From Gemmatimonadota bacterium (GTDB taxonomy: Bacteria; Gemmatimonadota; Gemmatimonadetes; Longimicrobiales; Gaopeijiaceae), in NCBI GenBank assembly GCA_022827345.1, contig JAJDTB010000032.1, positions 248,001 to 312,000 on the forward strand: a stretch of DNA of 64,000 bases, written 5' to 3'. A program made the position numbers and the translations under genes. Each line of letters starts with the position of its first letter. Position 1 is the stretch's first letter. Shown here one piece after another: positions 11,338 to 15,063 of the stretch. Under the pieces are notes generated by a model. It saw nothing but the letters and a program-made list of their open reading frames with translations, was not told the DNA's origin and did no database searches.

Positions 11338-12783
11338 ATGAGTCCGACAACCCGCTTCCTCGCCGTCGTCAAGGACGATTGCGAGACCTGCCACCTCGTC
11401 GCCCCCGTTCTCGGGCAGATCGCCCGCGAGGGCCACGACCTCACCGTCTGCTGGCAGGACGACGGCGGGTTCCTCGCTCCGTTTCTCGCGTCCGGCGTGA
11501 TCGATGACAGCCACCTGGAGCGGTCCTTCCGGCTGCGAATCGACACCGTTCCTACCCTCCTCCGCCTCGAGGACGACCGGGAGAGCGGCCGCATCGTCGG
11601 CTGGAACCGGCCCGAATGGCAATCGCTGACGGGGATGCCGGATCTGGGCGGCGGGCTGCCGGCGCATCGGCCCGGCTGCGGCTCCCGCTCCGTCGAGCCC
11701 GGGATCGCCGAAGTGCTGCGGGTGCGTTTCGGCGCATCCGGGATCCAGGCGCGCGCCATCCGGCTCGGTCCCGAAGCCGATCCCGTCGAAGCGTGCTACG
11801 ACCGCGGCTGGACAGACGGCCTCCCCGTGGTGCCCCCCACCCCCGAGCGAATCCTCCGCATGCTCGCCGGCACGCGCCGCGACCCGCGCGAGGTCGTCGG
11901 AGAGATCCCGCCGGAGTTGGCGCCCTGCACCGTCGAGAAGGTCGCCGTCAACGCGGTCATGGCCGGATGCAGGCCCGAGTACATGCCCGTGGTACTCGCC
12001 GCGCTGGAGGCCGCGCTGGACCCCGGCTTCACCCTGCACGGCGTCACCTGCAGCACCTGCTTCTCGAGCCCCGTCATCATCGTCAACGGGCCCGTGGCCA
12101 GGCGCATCGGAATGAACTCGGGGCTCAACGCGCTCGGGCAGGGCAACCGGGCCAACGCCACCATCGGCCGCGCGGTCAACCTCGTGGTGCGCAACGTCGG
12201 CGGCGGGCGCCCCGGCGAGATCGACCGCGCGACGCTGGGGTCGCCGGGCAAGTACACCTTCTGCTTCGCCGAGGACGAGAGCGACCCCGGCTGGGAGCCG
12301 CTCTCGACATCGCGCGGGGTGCCGGCCGGCCGCAGCGCGGTCACGGTGTTCGCGGGCGACGGGGTCCAGGGCGTCACCGACCAGAAGGCCCGCACCCCCG
12401 GCGAGCTCACGCGGTCGCTGGCGATGAGCCTGCAGGCCGTGGGGCACCCCAAGCTGTGCGAGTGGGCGCCAGCCGTTCTGGTTCTCTCGCCCGAGCACTA
12501 CGCGACCTACCGCGAGGCGGCGTGGGACCGGCGGCGGATCACTACCGCGCTGCACCGTGAACTTACGCGCAACGGAACCGAGGTCCGGGCGGGCGCGGGC
12601 GGCGTTGCCGAGGGGATGCCGTCCTCGCGCAGCCACGAGCGCATCGCCAAGTTCCACCCCGGCGCCCTGCTGCTCGTCCGCGCGGGCGGCCCCGCCGGCC
12701 TCTTTTCGGCCATCCTGTCGGGCTGGCCCGGAGGCCGGCTCTTCGAGGAATCGCACCCCGTCACCCGGGAGATCACCGAATGA
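11338..12783 (+). CDS. Thioredoxin-fold protein with large C-terminal domain of unknown function, partner of UGSC selenoprotein
   Basis: 481 residues, no signal peptide, probably cytoplasmic. Residues 1-90 look like a thioredoxin fold: FLAVVKDDCETCHLVAP carries a CxxC at 15-18, and IDTVPTLLRL carries the cis-proline-type segment. Residues about 150-470 form a separate domain I cannot name, with a second CxxC (CSTC, 238-241), VIIVNGPVARRIGMNSG and a Gly-rich NVGGG segment. GGAG 5-6 nt upstream supports the ATG. Its stop overlaps the ATG of the UGSC gene (ATGA, 12780-12783), so the two are probably co-translated. I infer a shared thiol/selenol redox or conjugation role; this is not demonstrated. 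Confidence 0.7.
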   Translation: MSPTTRFLAVVKDDCETCHLVAPVLGQIAREGHDLTVCWQDDGGFLAPFLASGVIDDSHLERSFRLRIDTVPTLLRLEDDRESGRIVGWNRPEWQSLTGMPDLGGGLPAHRPGCGSRSVEPGIAEVLRVRFGASGIQARAIRLGPEADPVEACYDRGWTDGLPVVPPTPERILRMLAGTRRDPREVVGEIPPELAPCTVEKVAVNAVMAGCRPEYMPVVLAALEAALDPGFTLHGVTCSTCFSSPVIIVNGPVARRIGMNSGLNALGQGNRANATIGRAVNLVVRNVGGGRPGEIDRATLGSPGKYTFCFAEDESDPGWEPLSTSRGVPAGRSAVTVFAGDGVQGVTDQKARTPGELTRSLAMSLQAVGHPKLCEWAPAVLVLSPEHYATYREAAWDRRRITTALHRELTRNGTEVRAGAGGVAEGMPSSRSHERIAKFHPGALLLVRAGGPAGLFSAILSGWPGGRLFEESHPVTREITE

Positions 12784-13346
12784 ACACGTCCGCAGTCACC
12801 CTGCACGACCCTACCTCCGAGGCCGCCCCGGCCAACCGCCCCCGCCGCCGCCCCCCGCCCTCCCTCGACGGCAGGACCGTCGCGCTCTTCGACATCGGCA
12901 AGTCGCGCGCCGGCGAGTTCCTCGACCACCTCGAGGCCCGCCTGCATGCCCGGGGCGTCACGACCGCGCGCTTCGCCAAGCCGACCAACGCCAAGCCCGC
13001 CACCGCCGCAATTCTGGGCGACATCGCCGCGGGCGCCGACATCGTCGTCGAGGCGCTCGCCGACTGAGGATCGTGCGTATCATGCGGTCTGCATGACATC
13101 AAGTCACTCGACGACCTTGGCCTTCCCGGCCTCCTCATCGCTACGACGGCCTTCCAGGAGGCGGCCGCCTTTCAGATCCCGTCGCTGGGCCTCGACCCCT
13201 TGATCGTGTGGGTGCCGCACCCCGTCCAGAATCGCACCCCCGAAGAGCTGGAGCGGATGGCCGACGACGCGCTCGATGCTGTCCTGGAGGGGCTGACTAC
13301 CCCGTCGTCGTCGCCACGATCAGGAACACCAGCACCACCACCGTGA
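12780..13346 (+). CDS. UGSC-family selenoprotein, in-frame TGA (13065-13067) read as selenocysteine
   Basis: 188 residues if TGA at codon 96 is decoded as Sec. Before it the frame reads VVEALAD, after it GSCVSCGLHDIK, LPGLLIATTAFQEAAAF and LDPLIVWVPHPVQNRTPEEL, good globular coding sequence that continues for 92 codons to a second TGA. Ala-Asp-Sec-Gly-Ser-Cys is the defining motif of the UGSC family found in selenoproteome surveys. A hairpin with a GGUCU loop follows 12 nt after the TGA. Stopping at the first TGA would cut the protein at its active motif and leave a 230-bp gap before the next gene. ATGA overlap with the upstream gene. The N-terminal 30 residues are Pro/Arg-rich and variable-looking. 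The last 50 bp overlap the convergent SLC13 gene. The reaction is unknown. selA/selB/selC/selD are not in the window. Confidence 0.85.
13065..13100 (+). promoter_or_regulatory. Bacterial SECIS element (UGA plus downstream hairpin)
   Basis: After UGA and 12 nt comes TCATGC-GGTCT-GCATGA (13080-13096): a perfect 6-bp stem with a 5-nt loop. The apical part TGC-GGTCT-GCA is almost the same as the SECIS apex of E. coli fdhF (TGC-AGGTCT-GCA), and the UGA-to-stem distance also matches (11 nt there). SelB recognises the GGUCU-type loop. An optional lower pairing GAU/AUC (13069-13071 with 13098-13100) can be drawn. Seen directly; the function is inferred from the match. Confidence 0.8.
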
Positions 13347-15063
13347 GCGGCGTGCCCAGCCGGGCATAGTCGCCGAAGTGGTAGCCGCCGGGACCGTACA
13401 CCATCAGGTTGGTCTGGTAGGCGATGGGGGTCATGAACGAGGCGGAGGCCGAGAGTGCCACCGCCACCGCCGCCGCACGCGCGCCGATCCCGAAGTCGGC
13501 CGCGGTGGTGATCGCGATCGGCAGCACCAGGGCGGCCGCCGCGTTGTTGGTGATGATGGAGCTGAGCGCGATCGTGCTTACGATGATGCCCGCCATGGCG
13601 CCCTCGGCCCCGAAGCGCCCGAAGACGTCGGCGACCAGGCCGGCCGCGGCGTGCCCCAGGCCCGAGCCCTCCACGGCGGCCGCAAGTCCGAACGCAGCAC
13701 CGATCACGACGATCACGTCGAAGTCGATGGAGTCCTTGGCCTCGTTCGGAGACAGCACGCCCAAGCCGACCAGGGCGAGGGCGCCGAGCAGCGACAGGTG
13801 CAGAATCGGCAGCACCCCCAGCCCCGCCCCCAGCACGATCACCGCGCCGATCCCGATCACGAGCCCCGCCTGCCGCGTGAGCAGCACGGGGGTGGGCGCG
13901 CCGAAGCGCGACACGAGCAGGAAGTCGTTGCGGTCCCGCCAGCGGTCCCCGAACCCGCGGTCGGAGATCACCAGGAGCGTGTCGCCGGGCTTGAGCGGCT
14001 CGTGGGCCATCGAACCGTGCACCGGCTCGCCCGCCCGGTGGATCGCCACCACGGTCGCCTGATACCGCGCGAGAAAGCGGACATCGGCCAGCGAGCGCCC
14101 CACCAGACGCGACTCGTGCGCGATGACGGCCTCGAAGTACGCGTGCCGCGCGCTGCGGAACTCGTACGGCAGGTGCGGCTGCTGCGACGACGCCAGCCCC
14201 GACACCTCGTGAAGGTCCAGCACCGCGTCGGTGTCGCCGACGAGGGTGAGGAAGTCGCCGCCTTCCAGCACCTTGTCCGGGGTGATCTGGCCGGCGCCTT
14301 CCCCATCCCGCTCGAAGTAGACGATCCTCGCCGTGTCGGGGAGCAGCGTCTGGACCTCGGCCACCGCCTTGCCGTCGAGCGGCCCTCCCGGCTCCACGAT
14401 CATGCGCACCGAAAAGCCGCGGCCTCCGGAGCGCGTCTCCAGACGCGGCGGCAGCCGGTCCGGTATGAGGTTGGGCGCCATCAGTACGTTCAGCACCAGC
14501 GCGACGACCGCGATGGGCAGCGCGATGCGGGTCAGCTCGAACATCGAGAAGGGCTCGTAGCCCTCGGCCTGCAGCAGCCCCGACACCACGAGGTTGGTGG
14601 AGGTGCCGATCAGGGTGGTCATCCCGCCGAGGATCGCCGCGAACGAGAGCGGCATCAGGTACCGGGAGGCCGAGTCTCCGCGCTGGTCGGCCCATTCCGC
14701 GACCTGCGGCGCCAGCATCGCGATGATGGGGGTGTTGTTGAGGAAGGCCGACGCCGCAGCGACGGGCACCGTGAGGCGCGCCAGCGCCATGCGCACGCTG
14801 CGGCCGGTGCCGAGGGTCAGCCGCACGATCGGCTGGAGCGCCCCGCTCCGCTCTACCGCGCGAGCCAGAACATAGAGGGCCGCTACCGTGAGGGGGGCGG
14901 GGTTCGAGAATCCCTGGAAGGCCGACTCGGGTGTCAGCACGTCGGCGACCAGGAGGATGACCACCGCCCCCGTAAAGGTGACCGCCGGCGACATCAGGTC
15001 GCGGGTGAGCACCAGGACCGCGAGGGTGATGACCGCCAGCGTCAGCCAGGCTTCCCAGGTCAT
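13297..15063 (-). CDS. SLC13/DASS-type anion permease with central RCK_C (TrkA-C) domains
   Basis: 588 residues, inner membrane. Roughly twelve hydrophobic segments in two blocks (about 1-190 and 390-588) flank a soluble region at about 200-385. Both halves have the SLC13-type hairpin signatures: SAFLNNTPIIAMLAP and GTSTNLVVSG in the first, SSIITNNAAAALVLPIA and TPIAYQTNLMVYGPGGY in the second. The soluble part fits two TrkA-C (RCK_C) domains. Bacterial members carry sulfate, dicarboxylates or related anions with Na+; the substrate cannot be told from sequence. Its 3' end overlaps the 3' end of the UGSC gene by 50 bp in convergent orientation. Confidence 0.88.
   Translation of the reverse strand: MTWEAWLTLAVITLAVLVLTRDLMSPAVTFTGAVVILLVADVLTPESAFQGFSNPAPLTVAALYVLARAVERSGALQPIVRLTLGTGRSVRMALARLTVPVAAASAFLNNTPIIAMLAPQVAEWADQRGDSASRYLMPLSFAAILGGMTTLIGTSTNLVVSGLLQAEGYEPFSMFELTRIALPIAVVALVLNVLMAPNLIPDRLPPRLETRSGGRGFSVRMIVEPGGPLDGKAVAEVQTLLPDTARIVYFERDGEGAGQITPDKVLEGGDFLTLVGDTDAVLDLHEVSGLASSQQPHLPYEFRSARHAYFEAVIAHESRLVGRSLADVRFLARYQATVVAIHRAGEPVHGSMAHEPLKPGDTLLVISDRGFGDRWRDRNDFLLVSRFGAPTPVLLTRQAGLVIGIGAVIVLGAGLGVLPILHLSLLGALALVGLGVLSPNEAKDSIDFDVIVVIGAAFGLAAAVEGSGLGHAAAGLVADVFGRFGAEGAMAGIIVSTIALSSIITNNAAAALVLPIAITTAADFGIGARAAAVAVALSASASFMTPIAYQTNLMVYGPGGYHFGDYARLGTPLTVVVLVFLIVATTTG

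Follow-up and report, generated by a model that had tools for sequence, protein, structure and literature searches.

By computational evidence, a TGA codon in a Gemmatimonadota genome is decoded as selenocysteine (Sec96) in a protein of the UGSC family, by the genome's own Sec machinery and under the direction of a SECIS hairpin, and the gene that carries it follows and overlaps the gene of an obligate partner protein. Both genes lie in the window analyzed here, a stretch of 64,000 nucleotides (Table 1). On balance, the Sec96 selenoprotein and its translationally coupled partner probably constitute a thioredoxin-driven two-protein reductase resembling GrdB/PrdB, which would cleave or reduce a small organic substrate. 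Taken by itself, the UGSC gene adds a new member to an already known family. UGSC proteins have been known since 2008 with no function assigned and are among the most abundant selenoproteins of ocean and fresh-water metagenomes (PMC2398784), and their function is still listed as uncharacterized in a 2026 review (PMC13188914). An earlier, sequence-only reading of this DNA had assigned the gene to the UGSC family and had seen in it a candidate for an undescribed system; the assignment stands, whereas the second claim does not hold for the gene alone, the family being long described. The novelty sits just outside the gene that reading had picked out, in the partner gene at 11338-12783 and in a link to PrdB/GrdB. 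As far as the sources show, what is new is the coupled partner, with its Sec form, and the tie to PrdB/GrdB.

Table 1. Features of the UGSC gene and its partner gene (window coordinates).
Feature	Position	Strand	Details
Partner protein gene, 481 aa	11338..12783	+	overlaps UGSC start by ATGA, 12780-12783
Thioredoxin-like domain of partner	11338..11637	+	CETC, residues 15-18 (11380-11391)
Cys114 of partner (PGCGS)	11677..11679	+	same codon is Sec (TGA) in eight betaproteobacterial homologues
Unnamed main domain of partner	11782..12780	+	GWxDGLPVxPPT ... MAGCxPEY ... GQGNRANATIGRA; invariant Cys197, Cys211
UGSC selenoprotein gene	12780..13346	+	188 codons, Sec at codon 96; PF24696, 117 bits
TGA read as Sec96, UGSC motif	13065..13067	+	in-frame TGA in 80/80 relatives
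Cys99, invariant UxxC partner of Sec96	13074-13076	+	
SECIS hairpin	13080..13096	+	stem TCATGC/GCATGA, loop GGTCT 13086-13090

The UGSC frame opens with ATG at 12780, runs for 95 codons to the TGA at 13065-13067 in the context ...VVEALAD-U-GSCVSCGLHD..., and then stays open for 92 codons more, until a second TGA at 13344-13346, exactly as the sequence-only reading had laid out its 188 codons. Translated with the TGA as Sec, the protein matches Pfam PF24696 (UGSC) over its full length (117.2 bits, cut-off 25, E 1e-33). Its score against NCBIfam NF041046, 111.5 bits, lies under the equivalog cut-off of 125 and thus marks it as a divergent member of the family. Each half matches PF24696 alone, residues 1-95 with E 5e-13 over profile positions 2-92 and residues 97-188 with E 7e-12 over positions 94-171, and the two profile ranges are consecutive; similarity beyond position 96, on which the earlier reading had staked its claim, is therefore present. 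Purifying selection acts on both sides of the TGA, with pN/pS values against six relatives of 0.18-0.48 before the codon and 0.20-0.46 after it. Conservation of the domain stops near residue 175 (GLT175); the last 13 or so residues are unconserved, and this tail overlaps the end of an antisense gene. The latter, at 13297-15063 on the minus strand, encodes a CitMHS/TrkA_C transporter, and it is its 3' end that overlaps the UGSC tail.

A scan of genome contigs yielded 80 UGSC relatives from Gemmatimonadota and from Alpha-, Beta- and Gammaproteobacteria, all of which carry TGA at the Sec96 codon. Within a phylum sample of 395 genomes, 48 match UGSC above the cut-off, and the UGSC gene has one internal TGA in every one of the 48. 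Cys replaces Sec96 (CGSC) in more distant homologues, including L143 and those of Natrinema, Roseovarius and Arthrobacter, so that an alignment of homologues, one of the checks proposed earlier, finds Sec or Cys at position 96. A second proposed check, a search for the Sec machinery, found all four components in the genome: selA (508 bits), selB (321 bits), selD (378 bits, with an in-frame TGA of its own) and tRNA-Sec (76.5 bits; ARAGORN SeC, anticodon tca). The genome's selD with its in-frame TGA is locus L018 (G000:C61:28808-29728), and the SelD of the source genome is probably also a selenoprotein.

The loop of the SECIS hairpin begins 18 nt after the TGA, on a six-pair stem and with the loop pattern [AG]GTNT; the SECIS of E. 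coli fdhF shares both the GGTCT loop and this spacing. Single-sequence folding energy after the TGA is no better than that of shuffles (z 0.01), and the SECIS is instead argued from covariation. Five of the six stem pairs are formed in all 78 distinct sequences, pair 18-30 occurring as GC (54), AT (16) or GT (8) and pair 21-27 as CG (74) or GC (4), and the change at 18-30 falls at synonymous third codon positions. Rfam gives no match in the window. The alternative that the TGA is a true stop, leaving a 95-aa protein or a pseudogene, has on its side that ordinary ORF calling ends the gene at 13067, which is also why the annotation of a Paracoccus homologue shows two broken hypothetical genes. 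It is rejected, with next to no probability left to it, because the family match and purifying selection extend to both halves, all 80 relatives keep the TGA, the SECIS covaries, the genome has the Sec machinery and there are homologues with Cys. The sequence-only reading had likewise argued for Sec96 and against a 95-codon protein or pseudogene, and these views are upheld by the 80 of 80 relatives with TGA, the covarying SECIS and the machinery in the one case, and by similarity and selection past the TGA in the other.

ORF callers cut UGSC genes in two, an example being Paracoccus ferrooxidans (L162:6450-7019, CP038202.1), whose annotation breaks a UGSC selenoprotein at the Sec TGA into two hypothetical proteins; the split gene adjoins the partner and lies near selB. 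A UGSC homologue at another locus (L142, G677:C6) has CGSC at the usual site and an in-frame TGA later (EKF-TGA-PAG), which may mean that the gene is broken, that there is an error or that the Sec has shifted.

The partner is an obligate partner of UGSC. By tblastn, 75 of the 80 UGSC relatives have a same-strand homologue upstream of UGSC; among the five exceptions, three contigs end less than 450 bases upstream, and two loci (L118, L121) are without a partner in the sequence compared. At L100 the partner is about 4.9 kb upstream of UGSC. Across the phylum sample, 47 genomes have both genes, 2 UGSC only, 1 the partner only and 345 neither; one of the two UGSC-only genomes is below the cut-off, and the partner-only case is a fragment at a contig edge. 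A Rhodospirillales genome encodes five UGSC paralogues, each beside a partner homologue and sometimes in reversed order, and in one of the five (L149) UGSC and partner are fused in one frame. Full UGSC-partner fusions are also found on plasmids of Vibrio (L160) and Sporomusa (L161); tblastn at 1e-5 detected no UGSC on plasmids, while the partner was found there. The 2008 paper reports a fusion of UGSC with a domain named 'Unknown_1' (PMC2398784), which is likely this partner. UGSC and the partner show no homology to each other, and among the neighbors of the 80 loci no third gene is conserved beyond the pair. One partner gene (L040/G058:C1:1866679-1868095) lies in three frames, which suggests frameshifts or an assembly error.

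The N-terminus of the partner resembles thioredoxins (Trx) by several measures, including a profile search against PDB thioredoxins (E 0.002), Foldseek (2.8e-4) and VIA (Z 10.5, rmsd 2.8, 100 aligned); a fold search with the whole partner model returned a list filled by thioredoxins. The main domain has no match by sequence in Pfam, NCBIfam or PDB. Cysteines 15, 18, 114, 197 and 211 of the partner are invariant. In other lineages the main domain is conserved without the Trx domain, and where this is so, trxB or both trxB and trxA adjoin the pair. Examples include trxB beside the pair in Roseovarius and Variovorax, and the gene order trxB-trxA-partner-UGSC in Arthrobacter. Fusion in one lineage and neighboring genes in another classically point to a shared pathway, and the Trx domain, fused here and replaced by trxB/trxA neighbors elsewhere, fits this pattern.

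In some betaproteobacteria the partner is a selenoprotein in its own right. Eight betaproteobacterial partner genes (L091, L096, L098, L101, L103, L104, L111, L122) hold one TGA, always at the Cys114 codon, as in L101:4343-5770 (PG[U]GS), and at these loci the frame continues for more than 350 codons past the TGA with about 60% identity. The TGA is followed by a hairpin, CTCGAGCCCGGGGTGGCCGAG, of which the L111 version, CTCATGCC...GGCTGAG, represents a compensated change. An NCBIfam scan of the Sec form, with E allowed up to 10, gives a weak thioredoxin match and no more, and none of the 119 families in the 2026 inventory (PMC13188914) fits the PG[U/C]GS partner. Judged by NCBIfam and that inventory, it looks like an uncatalogued selenoprotein family.

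An AlphaFold2 model of UGSC (pLDDT 91, pTM 0.83) consists of five strands alternating with helices, and in it Sec96 closes the third strand and precedes a helix. Foldseek and VIA list only generic flavodoxin-like matches, of the flavodoxin, TIR, PurE and CheY types; a chain of the MCR activation complex ranks first (Z 11.3, rmsd 3.8, 138 aligned), a match that is not read functionally. The predicted fold is thus flavodoxin-like, in contrast to the 'likely Trx-like' fold given in the 2008 paper (PMC2398784). A Trx fold of UGSC was dropped as a working model on the order of elements in the model, which is unlike that of thioredoxin; the absence of thioredoxins from the list does not by itself exclude it. 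Neither UGSC nor a PrdB-like set found a relative when searched by sequence against the PDB.

At the level of profiles, a relation to PrdB/GrdB does emerge. A first hhalign comparison of UGSC with PrdB/GrdB, built on few and less diverse sequences, gave E 0.01 and a probability of 4%, with Sec in register. A larger comparison of 59 UGSC with 21 PrdB/GrdB-type sequences, one of the latter being Peptoclostridium PrdB (VFTAGUGTC...LEESGIPTIII), aligned Sec on Sec over 98 columns with a probability of 91%, a score of 50.2 and E 1e-6, each of these E-values referring to a single directed comparison and not to a database search. Controls scored far lower, with 60 column shuffles at 21.6 or below, the reversed alignment at 15.3 and 20 unrelated families at 20.8 or below, and three separate subsets of PF07355 each aligned the same residue (E 4e-5 to 8e-4). 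The PF07355 profile itself matches neither the window UGSC protein, at E up to 10, nor any protein of its genome. On these alignments UGSC is, in our view, distantly homologous to the domain of PrdB/GrdB that bears Sec, and lies outside PF07355. Separate PrdB/GrdB-like selenoproteins (UPxC; L131-L138) occur in all six UGSC-bearing genomes tested, and in these proteins the PF07355 match ends just before the Sec.

The partner shows no homology to PrdA (hhalign E 0.25) or PrdD (0.85), and this comparison with PrdA and PrdD gives no hint of a pyruvoyl subunit. The second subunit is thus not the one found in D-proline reductase; the substrate site and its activation must therefore differ from those of D-proline reductase. 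For the UGSC pair we infer a physical complex, an electron path and a type of reaction as follows. The Sec96 selenolate would attack a small polarized organic substrate held between the subunits, which by analogy would be reductively cleaved or reduced. Cys99 would then release the product through a Se-S bond with Sec96, and electrons from NADPH would pass via thioredoxin reductase (TrxB) to the CxxC and Cys114 (or Sec) of the partner to reduce that bond. The genes near the pair in relatives encode TRAP/TTT uptake systems, CoA-transferases, HMG-CoA lyase and members of the isocitrate lyase/PEP mutase family, which suggests small organic acid catabolism. The window does not indicate the substrate, since neighbors are not conserved beyond the pair; from the TRAP/TTT and CoA-transferase genes of relatives, our guess is a small carboxylate or a CoA-linked acid.

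The same features could be read as those of a general thiol-disulfide or peroxide-reducing couple serving thiol protection, with no dedicated metabolic substrate. Such a couple would suit the UxxC motif, the Trx domain of the partner, the trxB/trxA neighbors and the Trx-like UGSC fold suggested in PMC2398784. We consider it unlikely, as the predicted fold is flavodoxin-like, homology points to PrdB/GrdB, and both the large conserved domain of the partner and the transporter and CoA-enzyme neighbors of relatives look metabolic.

The fused homologues of Vibrio and Sporomusa (L160:6323-8008, L161:6281-8005) have Met at the Sec site (MGTS) and lie beside genes for aconitase X and DUF126. Since these fusions carry Met, the UGSC scaffold can serve without Sec/Cys redox chemistry, and the two are possibly a non-redox branch of the family. 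That part of the superfamily works without Sec or Cys lends some weight to a further alternative, in which UGSC and its partner form a non-reducing lyase, dehydratase or isomerase scaffold with Sec as nucleophile or base, the Trx domain keeping Sec reduced. The invariance of Cys99 of the UxxC in Sec and Cys forms, the linkage to trxB and the Cys/Sec exchange in the partner indicate instead that a Se-S or S-S bond is turned over, and we regard the non-reducing scaffold as quite improbable.

Under the preferred reading of a thioredoxin-driven reductase, the long-orphaned UGSC family gets a first concrete and testable mechanism. With the identity of the partner, its Trx domain, its Sec and the tie to PrdB/GrdB, an 18-year-old orphan becomes assayable as two proteins whose electron donor is defined. 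A fuller reading, offered tentatively as something short of an even chance, is that the pair represents an undescribed class of selenoenzyme, with PrdB/GrdB-like Sec chemistry in the absence of a pyruvoyl subunit, a built-in thioredoxin domain and a partner belonging to a second, uncatalogued selenoprotein family (PG[U/C]GS), occurring in aerobic bacteria and, as Cys forms, in haloarchaea, and opening a carbon-heteroatom bond of a small acid.

GrdB/PrdB-type chemistry is best known from anaerobic amino-acid fermenters. UGSC relatives live in aerobes such as Roseovarius and Arthrobacter, and if the proposal is true this chemistry runs in aerobes too. The window protein resembles the known UGSC family (NF041046/PF24696) in sequence, UGSC motif and bacterial SECIS, and differs as a divergent subfamily with a Trx-fused partner encoded as a separate, coupled gene. 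With PrdB and GrdB (PF07355) it shares a strand, UG[S/T]C, a helix, and LExxGIP with the following strand, all in register. Both are thioredoxin-linked reductases of small substrates, as proposed for the UGSC pair: Sec of GrdB and PrdB opens C-N bonds of glycine, sarcosine, betaine and D-proline, and thioredoxin is the electron donor of glycine reductase (PMC13188914). Unlike them, UGSC comprises only about 170 residues and has a partner unrelated by profile to PrdA/PrdD. A GrdB-like protein has been proposed for C-F cleavage of fluoroacetate (PMC10838667), and this fluoroacetate reductase, FarB/FarE, is similar to the UGSC pair in combining a GrdB-type selenoprotein with proposed cleavage of a carbon-heteroatom bond in a small acid; it differs in its anaerobic Synergistota host, its GrdE-type second subunit and the radical SAM gene in its operon.
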